NCBI GenBank assembly: GCA_028344155.1
Contig: JAOMAI010000004.1
Location: forward strand, 1-54,209
Direction: 5' to 3'
DNA: 54,209 nucleotides
DNA from: Candidatus Nitrosopelagicus sp.
GTDB lineage: Archaea; Thermoproteota; Nitrososphaeria; Nitrososphaerales; Nitrosopumilaceae
The notes beneath the pieces were generated by a model. The model ran no database searches, was not told the origin of the DNA, and saw only the letters and a list, made by a program, of their open reading frames with translations. Every line of letters starts with the position of its first letter. Position 1 is the first letter of the stretch. A program made the position numbers and the translations under genes. Below are positions 13,935-19,870 of the stretch, piece after piece.

Positions 13935-14306
13935 TTAATAAAAGGCTGCGTTAGCTGTGCCGGTTATCTTTTCCACAGTTTTATGGTCTGCAATCTCTGC
14001 AATAGTGTTTACATTCATCATTCCAGTTACAACAAGTATATTCTTGTCCCATCTGTGAGTTGCTGCTTGAACGTGATACTTTTCAGTAATCTCGTATTTT
14101 GGCAAATCGACGTTTGTACCCTTTGGGAAGATTACCTCTAGATGCACATGTGGCATCATGTCGGGGAATTTTCTTTCCAAAGCCATTACATTGAGTAGTA
14201 GGTTTGAATCGGTCTTTGGAAATAACTTTGAGACGTCTTGCATGAAAGCATTATACATGCCTTCAAGTTTTTGACTTCTCTCGTTATCGTTACCAGAATC
14301 CTGCAA
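13935..14306 (-). CDS. Soluble partner of membrane protein, unknown function, TTG start
   Basis: A 123-residue protein without membrane segments, containing a His-bearing run (DMMPHVHLEVIFPKGTNVDL, then KYHVQAATHRWDK). The start is a TTG at 14306; an in-frame TGA lies just upstream and a GGAG sequence precedes the TTG at normal spacing inside the end of the upstream gene. The two genes overlap by 17 bases and should be translated together. Codon choice is richer in G/C-ending codons than in most neighbours, as in the symporter gene at the right edge, suggesting high expression. I do not recognise the family; it probably works with the 193-residue membrane protein. Confidence 0.75.
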   Translation of the reverse strand: MQDSGNDNERSQKLEGMYNAFMQDVSKLFPKTDSNLLLNVMALERKFPDMMPHVHLEVIFPKGTNVDLPKYEITEKYHVQAATHRWDKNILVVTGMMNVNTIAEIADHKTVEKITGTANAAFY

Positions 14307-14871
14307 TCCTTTTCACTCCTTTGTAGTCGTCATGCATTATGCAACCTCCAATGAATCCTGCGATTCCTCCGTATATTACATGGAGAATCAATGCATTGAT
14401 GTAAATTTTGTCGCTTTCATACAACAAAGTTGCTAATGCTTGTTGTTGTTCCAAGTCAAATTGAGATACGTCAGTAATTATCAATTCTACCTCCATCATT
14501 GGAGTCATTACGAACATGTGAATTGGCAAGAATGCTATTGTGAAAACAATTAGCCCAGTCCAAACACCAGTAATTATTGCTTTTGGGACGGTTACCAATC
14601 TGAAGAATCTCCAAATGTTTGAAGCCAAAAAGTACATAGCCCCAATCAATGCTGCAACGCCCATGTGAGCCATAAAGCCCATTGCAATTGCTAATCCTTC
14701 ATCTACGCCCATTGTAATACCGATAGTTTTGTAGAATGTTCCTGGTGGGATATCTAACATTTGATCGATTGCAAAGAATGATGAGAATAATGCAAAGCCG
14801 CCCATTAGGCCTGCTCCGATTCCGCCCTTCATCAATGCGATCTTACTTGGAAGTGATTGTGTAGTGCTCAT
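14290..14871 (-). CDS. Four-helix membrane protein, unknown function, biased codons
   Basis: A 193-residue protein with about four transmembrane helices (near residues 13-35, 65-85, 100-125 and 155-178). An N-terminal periplasmic-type loop has DIPPGTFYKTIGITMGVDEG. Methionine and histidine residues cluster near the membrane (MAHMG, PIHMFVMTPMMEVE, CIMHDD), which could bind copper; this is speculative. Codon use is unusually GC-ending for this genome, a sign of strong expression. Its promoter faces a cluster of CACTAG elements shared with the regulatory island to the right. It is not AmoA, AmoB or AmoC, but an auxiliary subunit of an abundant membrane complex is conceivable. Confidence 0.78.
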   Translation of the reverse strand: MSTTQSLPSKIALMKGGIGAGLMGGFALFSSFFAIDQMLDIPPGTFYKTIGITMGVDEGLAIAMGFMAHMGVAALIGAMYFLASNIWRFFRLVTVPKAIITGVWTGLIVFTIAFLPIHMFVMTPMMEVELIITDVSQFDLEQQQALATLLYESDKIYINALILHVIYGGIAGFIGGCIMHDDYKGVKRIAGFW

Positions 14872-14886
14872 TAAACAGTTTTTTTA

Positions 14887-15005
14887 ATTTATTGTATTTA
14901 TGGGTTATGCACTAGGGTATGTCTAGTGGTAAATTAACAAACTAGTTTTCTCTAGTGCCAATTATTAGGCACTAGACTCACCATAGGGCACTAGGCTTTA
15001 ATATC
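14887..15005. promoter_or_regulatory. Divergent promoter region with CACTAG operator cluster
   Basis: Between the divergent starts at 14871 and 15026 there are five copies of CACTAG or its complement: 14909-14915, 14923-14929, 14951-14959, 14968-14976 and 14988-14994. The middle two form a perfect inverted repeat with 9-base arms (TCTAGTGCC / GGCACTAGA) and an 8-base AT spacer. A TATA-like CATAAATA lies about 26 bases upstream of the minus-strand start. CTTTAATATC lies 22-31 bases upstream of the plus-strand start, directly next to the last CACTAG copy. This looks like a regulator-binding site placed at the TFB/TATA contact region. Confidence 0.6.
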
Positions 15006-15025: not shown

Positions 15026-15214
15026 ATGACAGAAGAACAAGAATGGGCAAGTCTCCTGGCAGAAGTTTTTGATAAACTAACTGCAAAGCACGCAGCCATT
15101 TCATACAAATTCGATAAGTTAGAACTTAGCGGAATGGTAGACAGAAATGGTAAAAAAGTTTCAACTGGAACAGTTGTGCTAACAGGCGGATTGACTATTA
15201 CAACAAAAACCTAA
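15026..15214 (+). CDS. Small hypothetical protein (62 aa)
   Basis: A 62-residue soluble protein: an N-terminal helix (EEQEWASLLAEVFDKLTAKHA) followed by a short basic middle and a strand-rich Gly/Thr C-terminus (TVVLTGGLTITTKT). No family recognised. A TATA-like element about 26 bases upstream implies a leaderless transcript, and CACTAG elements adjoin it. It is followed after 16 bases by another small gene and then by the NAD(P)-binding membrane protein, probably as one operon. Confidence 0.65.
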   Translation: MTEEQEWASLLAEVFDKLTAKHAAISYKFDKLELSGMVDRNGKKVSTGTVVLTGGLTITTKT

Positions 15215-15230
15215 TCAGGATTGATACGAA

Positions 15231-15590
15231 ATGAAAAGCGACCTTCCTGCCAATTTTTTACTTTACCTCCGTAGCGGAGATTTATCCATCAGTGATAAAG
15301 ATGGCACAGCCATCGAATTTTCCTCAAAAGGGGATATAAGAAGAATAAACATCGCACATCTTCCTACAAAAATTCCTGGAAAAATGAGCCTTCTAAAACA
15401 ACTTACCGAGGCTAAGCATATTGGTAAAATCCTAAAAAAGGAGAATGTTACACTTGAGATATTACATAAAAATAAACTAGTCCTTAAAATGGGCAAAAAT
15501 GCTAAACCAAAAATATCATCTTTAGTTACATTGAGTAAAGACATAGAGATCGTGGATCTCAAAGAACTTCGTAAATTAGACAAAGAGTGA
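15231..15590 (+). CDS. Small hypothetical protein (119 aa)
   Basis: A 119-residue basic, soluble protein with no recognised domain. The N-terminal half has strands (FLLYLRSGDLSISDKDGTAI) and the second half helices plus strands ending EIVDLKELRKLDKE. It lies 16 bases after the 62-residue gene and 4 bases before the NAD(P)-binding membrane protein gene. This close packing suggests a single three-gene transcript. Confidence 0.65.
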   Translation: MKSDLPANFLLYLRSGDLSISDKDGTAIEFSSKGDIRRINIAHLPTKIPGKMSLLKQLTEAKHIGKILKKENVTLEILHKNKLVLKMGKNAKPKISSLVTLSKDIEIVDLKELRKLDKE

Positions 15591-15594
15591 TAAA

Positions 15595-17064
15595 ATGAGT
15601 CAACAGGCTAGTTCTAGAAATTTACAGAAAATGGAAGCATTAAAAGAAAATGCAGACACAAAAGATTATTCAATCTTAGTAACAGGTGCAACGGGTTTCA
15701 TCGGAAAAAAATTACTCGAGAGACTAGCCAAAACAGGTTACAAAGTTACTGCAATGTCTAGATCAAAATATCCAGACGCAGAAAATATCAGATTTGTTGC
15801 AGCCGATGCATTTGAAATGAATTCATTAAATAAAGCACTAAAGGGAATTGAAACCGCATTTTATCTCCTACATTCAATGGAGGGTTCAAAAAAAGAATGG
15901 GAGAAATTTGCAGATAGAGAAAAATTACAGGCTCAGAATTTTCTTAAAGCTGCAGAAGATGCAGGAGTAAAGAGGATAATCTATCTAGGAGGTCTAGTTA
16001 ACGAGAGTTTAGAATTATCAAAGCATATGAGAAGTAGACACGAAGTTGGTAAGATTTTAGCATCAGGAAATATTCCTGTGACAGAATTAAGAGCATCCGT
16101 AATAGTAGGAGCAGAAGGTGGCTCCTATGCAATGCTCAGATATCTAGTAGAAAGATTACCACTAATGGTATGTCCAAAATGGGTTAAATCGACAACACAG
16201 CCAATTGCGGTGGATAATGTTGTAGACTATTTAGTTGGAGTTATGAAAAATCCTGTCACTGCAGGAAAGACACTGGAGATTGGAGGACCTGATAAAATGA
16301 CATACGAACAGATGATGAGATTGTACTCTTCAATAATTAACAGAAATCTCAACATCATACAAATTCCATTTTTGACTCCAAGACTTTCATCATACTGGAT
16401 TGATTTAGTGACTCCGGTAAAAGCATCATTAGCAAGACCATTAGTAGACAGTTTGGTTCACGATTCTTACGTCAAAGACAACAGCATCGATGAATTAGTT
16501 CCAATAAATCTTAAACATATGACTGAAGCTATCAAAGAGGCCAGAGATGAGGCAGTTGCATTCAAGCCAATCGGAAAAACACCTGAAGAAAAAACATCAT
16601 ACAAAGTTAATCAGAAATTACTTTTGATTTCACTTTGCGCCATGGCAATCATTGGCTCCACATACTATTGGATGGATGATAGAACAGATGTTTGGGAAAT
16701 TTCATGGCTATTTGGTTCAGCTATATGGTATGTTGCAATTATTTTTGCAATTTTATTTGTAAGGCAAAAAGCACGATTAGGATATCTCATTGGAGGCCTA
16801 TTATCATGGGTAACTTTGGCGTTTTGGTTATTTGATAACTTTTACGTTGTATTCCAAATGTCAGTAATAGGCGCAGAACCAAGTATCGACGTCACATTAA
16901 GGAATTTCATAGGAGCTGCATTTGCAGGATTGGCAATATTTTCATCTCATAACGTATTTCACAAAGTTAGAGTTTACCAGGCAAGGGGTGAATCGGTCAA
17001 AGAATCTGCCGGAGCAGAAGTTCCAAGCGGGGCAAGACCAGTCTATAACACAGACTACACATAA
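15595..17064 (+). CDS. Atypical SDR (NAD(P)-binding) fused to membrane domain
   Basis: The N-terminal 300 residues of this 489-residue protein form an extended/atypical short-chain dehydrogenase domain: the Rossmann loop TGATGFIGKKLLERL near residue 30, a RSKYPDAENIRFVAAD segment, and LLHSMEG and RIIYLGGLVNE strands typical of NmrA/SDR-a5 proteins. The usual catalytic YxxxK is not evident, so it may be a sensor or an isomerase-like enzyme. The C-terminal 150 residues contain about four transmembrane helices. Proteins of this architecture occur in light-induced gene sets of bacteria, which fits the neighbours (cobalamin, DICT and MEDS proteins); that link is inference. Confidence 0.82.
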   Translation: MSQQASSRNLQKMEALKENADTKDYSILVTGATGFIGKKLLERLAKTGYKVTAMSRSKYPDAENIRFVAADAFEMNSLNKALKGIETAFYLLHSMEGSKKEWEKFADREKLQAQNFLKAAEDAGVKRIIYLGGLVNESLELSKHMRSRHEVGKILASGNIPVTELRASVIVGAEGGSYAMLRYLVERLPLMVCPKWVKSTTQPIAVDNVVDYLVGVMKNPVTAGKTLEIGGPDKMTYEQMMRLYSSIINRNLNIIQIPFLTPRLSSYWIDLVTPVKASLARPLVDSLVHDSYVKDNSIDELVPINLKHMTEAIKEARDEAVAFKPIGKTPEEKTSYKVNQKLLLISLCAMAIIGSTYYWMDDRTDVWEISWLFGSAIWYVAIIFAILFVRQKARLGYLIGGLLSWVTLAFWLFDNFYVVFQMSVIGAEPSIDVTLRNFIGAAFAGLAIFSSHNVFHKVRVYQARGESVKESAGAEVPSGARPVYNTDYT

Positions 17065-17325: not shown

Positions 17326-17341
17326 ACTCACCATGGTGAGT
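17326..17341. promoter_or_regulatory. Perfect 16-base palindrome upstream of MEDS gene
   Basis: The sequence ACTCACCATGGTGAGT is fully self-complementary. It sits just upstream of a TATA-like TTTATTAG (17347-17354) that is about 26 bases from the ATG at 17376. The half-site ACTCACCAT also occurs at 14976-14984 in the promoter of the 62-residue gene. Position and symmetry fit a dimeric regulator-binding site. Confidence 0.6.
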
Positions 17342-17375: not shown

Positions 17376-17927
17376 ATGTCAAAGGCAATTAATGCAAATG
17401 AATTTTTAGAAGAATTAGACCATACTCACATAGTTCTATTTCATGATGGAAATAATGAAACTAAAGAAACAGAGTATAATTTTATCAAAAAAGGACTAGA
17501 CAATGGACAACATTGTTTTTACACGACTCAGAAACCTCAGAAAATTTTAGGTGAAATGAAAGGATTTGGAATTAATACAGAAAATAACGAACTCCTCCAT
17601 ATTGTCGAAATACCTGAGGCATTTGAAGACTATTCAAAAATGATATTGGATAAGGTTGAAGGGCTTCCTGAAGAGGCCAAAATCAGAGTGATATCTACGC
17701 ACTATTTTGACTTCAATACTGAAGAAAAAACTGACAGAATGGCAGAAATTGAACAATGTGTAGATGACGGTTTTGAAAAAATTAACGGTAATTTTCTCTG
17801 CTCATTCGAAGTTAGTCAAATAAATCAAAATCTAAGGGATAGATTCCTAAATCAGCTGTTAGAATCACATAAAGCAATAATATTTCAGACAGAAGAGAAA
17901 GGTACTGAAGTATTTACCACCCCCTAG
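17376..17927 (+). CDS. MEDS-domain sensory protein
   Basis: This 183-residue protein matches the MEDS (DcmR-type sensory) domain: an opening strand HIVLFHDGNNE, then EYNFIKKGLDNGQHCFYTTQ corresponding to the family's 'F..GL..G..C.Y' core, LLHIVEIPEAFEDYSKMI, and a final strand AIIFQT. MEDS domains are thought to sense small molecules and are related to the RecA/KaiC fold without a usable P-loop; I see no Walker A here. It is a stand-alone domain with no output module, so it probably acts through a partner such as the winged-helix protein 82 bases downstream. Confidence 0.8.
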   Translation: MSKAINANEFLEELDHTHIVLFHDGNNETKETEYNFIKKGLDNGQHCFYTTQKPQKILGEMKGFGINTENNELLHIVEIPEAFEDYSKMILDKVEGLPEEAKIRVISTHYFDFNTEEKTDRMAEIEQCVDDGFEKINGNFLCSFEVSQINQNLRDRFLNQLLESHKAIIFQTEEKGTEVFTTP

Positions 17928-18285: not shown

Positions 18286-18334
18286 ATTTCAAGACAATAA
18301 ATAACCAGAGTTAAGAAATTATCAATAAATGTTA

Positions 18335-18360
18335 GCACTAGATATACTTATTAGGCACTA
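18335..18360 (+). promoter_or_regulatory. Promoter with paired CACTAG elements around TATA
   Basis: GCACTAG (18335-18341) and GGCACTA (18354-18360) flank the TATA-like GATATACTTATTAG, whose centre is about 28 bases from the ATG at 18376. TTATTAGGCACTA here is identical to bases 14963-14975. A protein bound at either copy would block TFB/TBP or polymerase access. Confidence 0.55.
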
Positions 18361-18375
18361 TTCGTAAAATAGGGT

Positions 18376-19227
18376 ATGGTATATCTTCGAAAAAAGAAGG
18401 TAAAAGGAGTAGATTATTTGTATTTAGTTAAAAGTACATGGGATAAGGAGAAAAAAACATCAAGACAAGAGACAATCAAATATCTAGGAGAATCATCCTC
18501 AGTCACAAGAGACGACATTCCAGTAGAATTCAGGGAAGATGCAAAGATTAACTCATTCTTGTTACAAAATACACCGAAAGATAGAGAAAAACGTGAAAAG
18601 TTGATTGAGCAATTGAGAACCAAATTGTTTTCATCACTTACAGAAGGAAGTCTAAAAGATACAATGGATATTTACTCAGCATTTGTATCCGGTAATACAT
18701 TAGACCAATTCTATGAAAGAGTTATGACTCCAGTAATGTCAGAAATTGGATACTTATGGTCAGAAGGTAAACTATCAATTGCAACAGAACATGTTGCAAG
18801 CAATATTGCACACAGTTTAGTGAAAGTCATTGCCGACGAGAATAGAAAATCTAAAAAAGATAAAGGAAAAATTGTATTAACCACACCTGTTGGCGAAGAT
18901 CATAATTTAGGGTGTAATGTATTGGATTCATTTTTAGTTTCAAAAGGCTTTACAACATTCAACCTTTCACCATCAACCCCTGCAGAATCATTAATTGAAT
19001 TCATTAAAACTGCAAAACCAGATGCGTTAATCGTATCCATAACATTGGAAGATAATATTAGATCGGGTCAAAGAATGGTTAAGAAAATTCATGAAACATA
19101 CAAAAAACTACCAATATTCATCGGAGGTTTAGCATTTTCAGAAAAAACAAACTTCAAATTCGATGGAAAACTTATCACGGACGCTCATGCATTAGAGCAA
19201 ATTCCTCGAATTATAAAAAAGAAGTAA
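18376..19227 (+). CDS. Cobalamin-binding protein of CarH-like architecture
   Basis: The 283-residue protein has an N-terminal 45-residue beta segment (YLYLVKSTWD...RQETIKYLGE) resembling the opening of IS1634/IS4-type transposases. A helical B12-binding cap (about 75-155) and a Rossmann-type B12-binding domain (about 165-283) follow. The cap carries W128 and E138-H139 in the Wx9EH arrangement of CarH photoreceptors. E174-D-H176-N-L-G179 is the ExHxxG lower-ligand motif, His176 being the expected cobalt ligand. It lacks the MerR DNA-binding domain of CarH. The residue after W128 is Ser, where Thermus CarH has a His that binds cobalt after light. Probably a B12-based sensor, possibly of light; no methyltransferase partner is nearby. 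Confidence 0.85.
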   Translation: MVYLRKKKVKGVDYLYLVKSTWDKEKKTSRQETIKYLGESSSVTRDDIPVEFREDAKINSFLLQNTPKDREKREKLIEQLRTKLFSSLTEGSLKDTMDIYSAFVSGNTLDQFYERVMTPVMSEIGYLWSEGKLSIATEHVASNIAHSLVKVIADENRKSKKDKGKIVLTTPVGEDHNLGCNVLDSFLVSKGFTTFNLSPSTPAESLIEFIKTAKPDALIVSITLEDNIRSGQRMVKKIHETYKKLPIFIGGLAFSEKTNFKFDGKLITDAHALEQIPRIIKKK

Positions 19228-19249
19228 TTACCACTATTTTGATCAATTT

Positions 19250-19267
19250 CCACTAGCTTAAATATTC
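19250..19267 (+). promoter_or_regulatory. Promoter with CACTAG element before DICT gene
   Basis: CCACTAG (19250-19256) directly abuts a TATA-like CTTAAATATTC (19257-19267). Placing transcription start about 25 bases downstream of the TATA centre puts it at about 19286, which would make the third in-frame ATG (19286) a leaderless start for the gene annotated from 19271. Confidence 0.5.
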
Positions 19268-19270
19268 TAA

Positions 19271-19870
19271 ATGTTTAGCATGACTATGGGTTTAACAAAC
19301 GATAGTTTGATTGACACCGTATTTGAAAGATTCCCGGAAAAGAAGGAAATTAAAGAACAAGGAGACGAGATCTTTGTAAACTGGAACTTTCAGGACTTTC
19401 AAGATGGCGGATATCTAAACTTCAAAGCAGACCGTTCAGATCTTTTTGCACTAAGCATAATGATTGAGAACTATGCATCTAAACATACAGCCCCACTACT
19501 TGCATCGTTTGAGACAGATAAGCGATATGAATTTGTCAAAGATAGATATCTCAAATTGATGAAAAAACTTCCAAGAACATGGGTTATTGGGAATTTTAAC
19601 AATCCGCATCTAGCTCAAGAAGTACCGGATAGTTGCCAAGTACTTAGCTGTATAGGAACACCACTTGCAACAGTTTGGGCAGTAGTAACAAAAGGACCAG
19701 ATGGTCCAATTGGGTTGATAGCAGAAGAATACGGAGTTGGAAAATTCAGAGGTTTCTTTTCAACTCAACCAGATGTAGTGCAAGCAGCTGTAGATGCAAT
19801 GGGTGAAATACTAGTAACAAAGTTCGACTTTAACAAAAAAGAATATGAGTTTGCTAAAGGCGGATACTAG
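19271..19870 (+). CDS. DICT-domain sensory protein
   Basis: The 199-residue product resembles the DICT domain named for diguanylate cyclases and two-component systems: FALSIMIENYASKHTAPLLASFE, a RYEFVKDRYLKLM helix, RTWVIGNF, and the conserved SCIGTPLATVWAVVTKGPDGPIGL followed by an AEE motif. DICT is thought to be a sensory domain, often found with light or B12-linked regulators. No output domain is attached. Three candidate ATG codons occur (19271, 19280, 19286); the TATA position favours 19286 (protein MGLTNDS...). It lies 43 bases after the cobalamin-binding protein gene and shares its operator motif. Confidence 0.82.
   Translation: MFSMTMGLTNDSLIDTVFERFPEKKEIKEQGDEIFVNWNFQDFQDGGYLNFKADRSDLFALSIMIENYASKHTAPLLASFETDKRYEFVKDRYLKLMKKLPRTWVIGNFNNPHLAQEVPDSCQVLSCIGTPLATVWAVVTKGPDGPIGLIAEEYGVGKFRGFFSTQPDVVQAAVDAMGEILVTKFDFNKKEYEFAKGGY

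Follow-up and report, generated by a model that had tools for sequence, protein, structure and literature searches.

The window, i.e., the whole analysed stretch of 54,209 nucleotides from a Candidatus Nitrosopelagicus sp. (contig JAOMAI010000004.1), harbors a gene for a CarH-like protein on the forward strand, together with predicted operator sites and several genes that are candidate members of the same regulon (Table 1). The reading frame of the CarH-like gene is genuine, as its start and end are shared with orthologues throughout the order. Pfam analysis of the deduced protein revealed a B12-binding_2 domain (E 5.6e-9) and a B12-binding domain (E 2.5e-10), both above cut-off, and the top NCBIfam match was TransRegCarH with 63.2 bits, which is far from the equivalog cut-off of 400 bits. 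A MerR or other HTH domain was not found in the Pfam or NCBIfam scans.

Table 1. Features of the CarH-like gene and its predicted regulon in the window
Feature	Position	Strand	Basis
Gene for 193-aa membrane protein, transcribed away from SDR operon; probable regulon member	14290..14871	-	
Conserved half-site cluster in the divergent promoter region between membrane-protein gene and SDR operon	14924..14993	.	conservation
Small gene (62 aa), first of putative operon; homologues with paired sites	15026..15214	+	
119-aa gene, second of putative operon	15231..15590	+	
SDR/NmrA-type protein with C-terminal membrane part	15595..17064	+	36% identity over 294 aa to an SDR of the Thermus thermophilus CarH cluster
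Predicted operator of CarH-like gene, TTAGCACTA-N11-TAGGCACTA direct repeats, 20-bp period	18332..18360	+	promoter alignment
CarH-like cobalamin-binding regulator, 283 aa	18376..19227	+	Pfam domains, orthologues, fold match to CarH/photocobilins
N-terminal three-stranded beta element (residues 1-40), replacing MerR, presumed DNA-binding domain	18376..18495	+	structure models, transposase homology
Four-helix-bundle cap domain (residues 81-151) with W128 and E138-H139 (Wx9EH)	18616..18828	+	Pfam, alignment
Codon of Ser129, aligned with CarH His132; residue differs among homologues, with His in none	18760..18762	+	alignment
B12-binding Rossmann domain (residues 164-255) with lower ligand His176	18865..19140	+	Pfam, alignment
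Paired half-sites TTACCACTA-N10-TTTCCACTA before DICT-like gene	19228..19255	+	conserved in relatives, TATA-like element after
DICT-like protein, likely regulon member	19271..19870	+	weak Pfam DICT match (E 0.076)

In the sequence-only reading that preceded this analysis, the pocket of CarH had been recognized in this frame by the Wx9EH motif and H176, and all of these residues were indeed found at the positions claimed. Alignment of 89 distinct full-length homologues revealed W128, E138, H139, S142, N143, G173, and H176 to be invariant (89/89), and the conservation of W128, E138, H139, and H176 far exceeds chance. The archaeal protein has both the four-helix bundle and the Rossmann B12 domain with Wx9EH and D/ExH, by which CarH/LitR proteins are recognized; Wx9EH and ExH are constant over the 89 homologues. 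Light-responsive cobalamin-binding domains are furthermore described by a SignatureFinder signature consisting of GxxW, EH, GxxH, and GxxxP (PMC11796333). Among the homologues, GxxW (G125-W128), EH, and GxxH (G173-H176) are invariant, and in GxxxP the window protein has Ser for Gly (S198-P202) with Pro202 being invariant in the alignment.

Based on profile searches, the nearest PDB sequences were photocobilins, CtMerR, and CarH, and the same proteins resulted as fold matches of an AlphaFold model (pLDDT 85.7). In a simple tree built on short divergent domains, which is indicative only, the archaeal family formed its own clade (local support of 0.958) beside bacterial Wx9EH domains and apart from MetH; this separate clade bears out the earlier proposal of a distinct class, namely a non-MerR, CarH-like B12 protein of archaea. 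The same data bear on the outcome that had been named as speaking against it, namely that the protein belongs with the corrinoid proteins of methyltransferases. Though the NCBIfam profiles MtgC, MtaC, and MetH do match it, all of them rank below TransRegCarH and far under their own cut-offs, Wx9EH is invariant in the archaeal family while MetH-type proteins of the same archaea display F and VL instead, and no methyltransferase was recognized among the recurrent neighbours of the gene. We regard this explanation as very improbable and rejected it on the presence of Wx9EH and the separation from MetH in the tree.

The residue next to W128 is Ser, as had been stated, and Ser129 aligns with His132 of T. 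thermophilus CarH, which reads W-H at this site. Among the 89 homologues, position 129 is Ala in 48, Ser in 20, Glu in 8, and Asp in 6, with other residues in the rest and His in none. Since the position varies freely in the family, Ser is not diagnostic, and its use as the marker of a separate clade had to be given up. Of the changed photochemistry that had been suggested, one part stands: a bis-His light state via position 129 is impossible, and with the upper His absent, the light state of the archaeal protein should be a different one. The other part, its singularity, falls, as the position is variable and natural loss of the His is already known, the residue being Arg in CtMerR, Gln in SasPcob, and Tyr in AbDPcob (PMC11796333, PMC10979010). 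The missing upper His, being known in bacteria, is hence a weak part of any claim to novelty. In its light state, SasPcob is a monomer with cobalamin ligated by water/hydroxide (PMC11796333, PMC10979010), and the H132A variant of Thermus CarH shows little change on illumination, mostly remains assembled, and has a poor light response (PMC10442372). A different ligand, which had also been considered, is not borne out, because the pocket residues contacting the adenosyl group (W, E, and H) are invariant.

In regard to the N-terminus, the segment noted before in place of MerR, with its resemblance to the opening of IS1634/IS4 transposases, turned out to be truly homologous to it in a profile-profile comparison with six transposase-like N-termini (98.3% probability, E 2.6e-14, 39 columns). 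A search with the N-terminal profile in 61 genomes resulted, outside the family, in DDE_Tnp_1 transposases of 450-490 aa, two shorter IS-like frames, and a Fic-family protein (L186 5434-6321), which opens with the same beta element. Judged by these profiles, the protein is homologous to IS4-type (DDE_Tnp_1) transposases over its first ~40 residues, and the beta element is a module shared with transposases and the Fic-family protein. Unlike IS4/IS1634-type transposases, the CarH-like protein carries no DDE catalytic domain, so that only the N-terminal element is common to both. Residues 1-40 were modelled as three strands (2-9, 12-23, and 28-39; pLDDT about 85-90). A fold search with this domain alone revealed no significant match to a solved structure (best E 0.33), and a PDB sequence search with it resulted in chance matches only. 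We infer that the element binds DNA, because it stands at the place of MerR in CarH, is found in transposases, and an operator exists.

The gene neighbourhood and the operator repeats, both lying outside the part of the window that the sequence-only reading had covered, are the more important evidence. In a search of 300 Nitrososphaeria genomes (matches with E below 1e-40, classified by hand), the CarH-like gene was identified in 110 genomes, some of which have paralogues; at least four families are represented. Neighbours were counted within five genes of the CarH-like gene at 104 distinct loci. An SDR with a membrane part was counted at 64 of these, followed by the DUF1722/RudS group at 46 (mostly stand-alone DUF1722, fused to a desulfurase domain in the scanned example), a CrtI-like flavin oxidase at 44, a TFB at 40, an SRPBCC protein at 39, DICT-like proteins at 20, and a DNA photolyase at 14. 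Among the 300 genomes, counted as independent, 37 of the 39 photolyase carriers and 59 of the 63 DUF1722 carriers also possessed the CarH-like gene. Within genus g31, again with related genomes counted as independent, photolyase occurred in 17/44 genomes with versus 0/27 without the gene (p 9e-5), and DUF1722 in 41/44 versus 1/27 (p 5e-15). DUF1722 lies less than 5 kb from the CarH-like gene in 55 of 63 matches, and photolyase less than 12 kb in 22 of 40; in the Nitrosopelagicus genome G025, however, about 489 kb separate the photolyase gene from the CarH-like gene, and no DUF1722 was detected.

The T. thermophilus CarH cluster contains phr, phytoene synthase, crtI, and uvsE beside its SDR gene. 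Light-responsive LitR operons are reported to include RudS genes, and the LitR regions of Pseudomonas harbor photolyase, SDR, and FAD oxidoreductase genes (PMC11417400, PMC9758184). The neighbours of the archaeal gene are of the kinds found in bacterial CarH/LitR light clusters, and location by light-stress genes together with an operator at its own promoter, as expected of CarH/LitR, was found for the archaeal gene.

Some neighbours deserve separate mention. In several Nitrosopelagicus genomes without a full SDR at this place, the CarH-like gene is adjoined by a gene for a stand-alone protein of ~130-155 aa that matches part of the SDR-membrane protein (L032 9004-9423, L033 8703-9158, L042 3699-4163, L043 26-409). 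Directly upstream of the CarH-like gene of a distant relative lies a pyrimidine-dimer DNA glycosylase gene (L040 8892-9335), a further link to UV. The frequent TFB (TFIIB) gene (e.g., L036 10216-11148) has no operator of its own; its product is possibly a dedicated initiation factor.

Counting k-mers upstream of the CarH-like gene resulted in TAGTGCTAA/TTAGCACTA as the top 9-mer. The aligned promoters read TTAGCACTAg-N9-TTAGCAtTAgTTAaAtA, displaying two direct repeats 19 bp apart with a TATA box right after the second, so that the consensus operator consists of the paired direct repeats TTAGCACTA-N10-TTAGCAYTA beside a TATA box. The second repeat of most relatives directly adjoins the TATA box and occupies the position of TFB recognition (BRE). 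In a non-redundant set of 66 promoters (proteins under 90% identity), the half-site was detected with at most one mismatch in 58, compared to 1.4 expected from shuffles and 1 with the reversed pattern. The repeat spacing was 19 bp in 70 cases, with any other value occurring at most 4 times.

Paired sites preceded 79 of 107 CarH-like genes. They also stood before 55 of 83 genes that encode a secreted ~300-aa protein and diverge from DUF1722, before 30 of 53 CrtI-like, 18 of 77 SDR, and 8 of 29 DICT-like genes, and, for the small gene at 15026, before 6 of its 19 copies; none were found before the TFB, SRPBCC, photolyase, DUF1722, NreA, and other neighbour genes, and the reversed-sequence control resulted in 1/1945. 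A manual count in closed genomes (at most one mismatch) revealed 42 matches in 19 genomes with the gene and none in 10 without it. Exact operator pairs, counted over the 300 genomes with a slightly wider pattern, occurred in 74/110 genomes with versus 2/190 without the CarH-like gene (p 8e-40); here, the reversed pattern matched once in 300 genomes. Less than 12 kb separated 90 of the 99 exact matches from a CarH-like gene, a nearness that is partly circular, as the motif was learned from CarH-like promoters, which does not apply to its absence elsewhere and its presence at other promoters. Where genomes lacking the CarH-like gene have DUF1722 or photolyase loci, these were free of sites in G161, G144, and G182, and one site was found in G221, where the locus lies on a 3.1-kb contig of a genome of 90% completeness, so that the gene may have been missed. 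In a divergent paralogue group that shares an operon with a CrtI-like gene, the operon is preceded by this operator pair, likewise at a 19-bp period.

The second commonest operator target is the ~300-aa protein divergent from DUF1722 (e.g., L198 9811-10695), which has a signal-like N-terminus and VPSWVKNNAGWWADG within two repeats, but no match in Pfam or NCBIfam. More operator-bearing genes encode proteins of ~127 aa, by eye resembling what the window gene at 13935 encodes, and membrane proteins of ~105-119 aa (L198 18848-19231, L106 14148-14507, and others).

The window's own CarH-like operator reads TTAGCACTAGATATACTTATTAGGCACTA, its 20-bp period being the form of this lineage. After the repeats of the Nitrosopelagicus CarH-like promoter, no clear TATA box was seen, and therefore the site would act within or downstream of the promoter. 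The half-site cluster between 14871 and 15026 could serve both the SDR operon and the divergent membrane-protein gene.

Altogether, with a probability of roughly 70%, we propose that the gene encodes a one-component AdoCbl-dependent light-responsive transcription regulator of ammonia-oxidising archaea, working like bacterial CarH/LitR. Domains, invariant residues, neighbourhood, co-occurrence, and the operator repeats with their specificity were computed here, and we infer AdoCbl binding, a response to light, and repression rather than activation. In the dark, AdoCbl would be bound base-off on His176 with its adenosyl group held by W128/E138/H139, leading to an oligomer whose transposase-like N-terminal beta domains would bind the paired 9-bp repeats. 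With the second repeat of most relatives right at the TATA box and BRE, bound protein would block initiation there; this position favours dark repression and light derepression, with activation being possible, too. Blue or green light would break the Co-C bond and release adenosine, so that the oligomer would loosen, and without an equivalent of His132 the light state would presumably be a water- or hydroxide-ligated cob(III)alamin instead of a bis-His form. Light would thereby derepress the CarH-like gene itself and a putative light-stress set comprising the CrtI-like oxidase, the SDR-membrane protein, the DICT-like protein, and the secreted protein divergent from the DUF1722 gene, together with photolyase at loci whose operon continues into its gene. 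Somewhat less firmly, we consider it probable that the family represents an archaeal B12 photoreceptor class, widespread among ammonia oxidisers, that uses a transposase-related beta domain instead of MerR as DNA reader and controls a light-stress regulon via a defined direct-repeat operator of 19-bp period at TATA/BRE.

Alternatively, the protein might sense cobalamin supply or redox state instead of light, with AdoCbl as corepressor and general stress or membrane genes as targets. AdoCbl level and light would work through one and the same pocket, several targets have no known role in light, and thaumarchaea are implicated as cobalamin producers (PMC4303638). We nevertheless take this to be unlikely, as photolyase, DUF1722/RudS, CrtI-like, and SDR genes in the neighbourhood form a light and UV set, and no cobalamin synthesis or uptake genes were seen among the identified recurrent neighbour families, of which one is periplasmic-binding-like. 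Slightly less likely still is a light sensor that does not itself bind DNA and instead modulates another repeat-binding protein, as AerR does with CrtJ, an arrangement that would suit the lack of a recognizable HTH and the presence of HTH_45 proteins, TFB, and other regulators beside the gene at some loci. HTH_45 proteins, however, are near only 11 of 104 loci and are thus unlikely to be the true DNA binder, the CarH-like gene is the sole constant at operator loci, and exact operators are nearly absent from genomes without it.

The proposed light-dependent regulator shares with CarH (class I LitR) of T. thermophilus and Myxococcus xanthus a B12 domain in two parts that carries Wx9EH and ExH, with 25% of 153 residues being identical, the clustering with photolyase, CrtI, and SDR genes, and a direct-repeat operator overlapping the promoter. 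In contrast to CarH, it has neither a MerR domain nor a His at the upper-ligand position, and its paired 9-bp repeats at 19-bp period lie in an archaeal promoter context. Because the MerR domain is absent and the equivalog cut-off is not reached, it should not be filed under CarH/LitR of the MerR family. By profile, the closest solved B12 domains are those of CtMerR (Chloracidobacterium) and the photocobilins SasPcob and AbDPcob, which like the archaeal family have no upper His (PMC11796333); CtMerR, however, carries a MerR domain and the photocobilins a bilin-binding globin-like domain, and none of them has the archaeal N-terminal element. The light operons of class II LitR/RudS in Pseudomonas resemble the archaeal loci in harboring photolyase, SDR, FAD oxidoreductase, and RudS genes (PMC9758184, PMC11417400), but class II LitR is reported as MerR-type with the four-helix bundle only, whereas the archaeal protein has both B12 domains and no MerR.

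Light inhibits ammonia oxidation (PMC9239080), and in searches of an open-access library we found no paper on an archaeal B12 photoreceptor or a light sensor of ammonia-oxidising archaea. If true, our proposal would provide a light sensor for organisms whose activity light inhibits, and a B12 photoreceptor module joined in archaea to an unrelated DNA-binding domain. It suggests how sunlight-sensitive marine ammonia-oxidising archaea detect light, and with a candidate sensor, a predicted operator, and target genes at hand, these archaea can now be tested directly for light sensing. With its compact operator, the protein is also a candidate for a green-light switch.

Apart from the direct repeats, the window contains a perfect 16-bp palindrome, ACTCACCATGGTGAGT, at 17326-17341, located before a gene for a MEDS-domain protein (17376-17927). 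A similar palindrome was identified in relatives, and it is perhaps a second, different operator belonging to another regulator.
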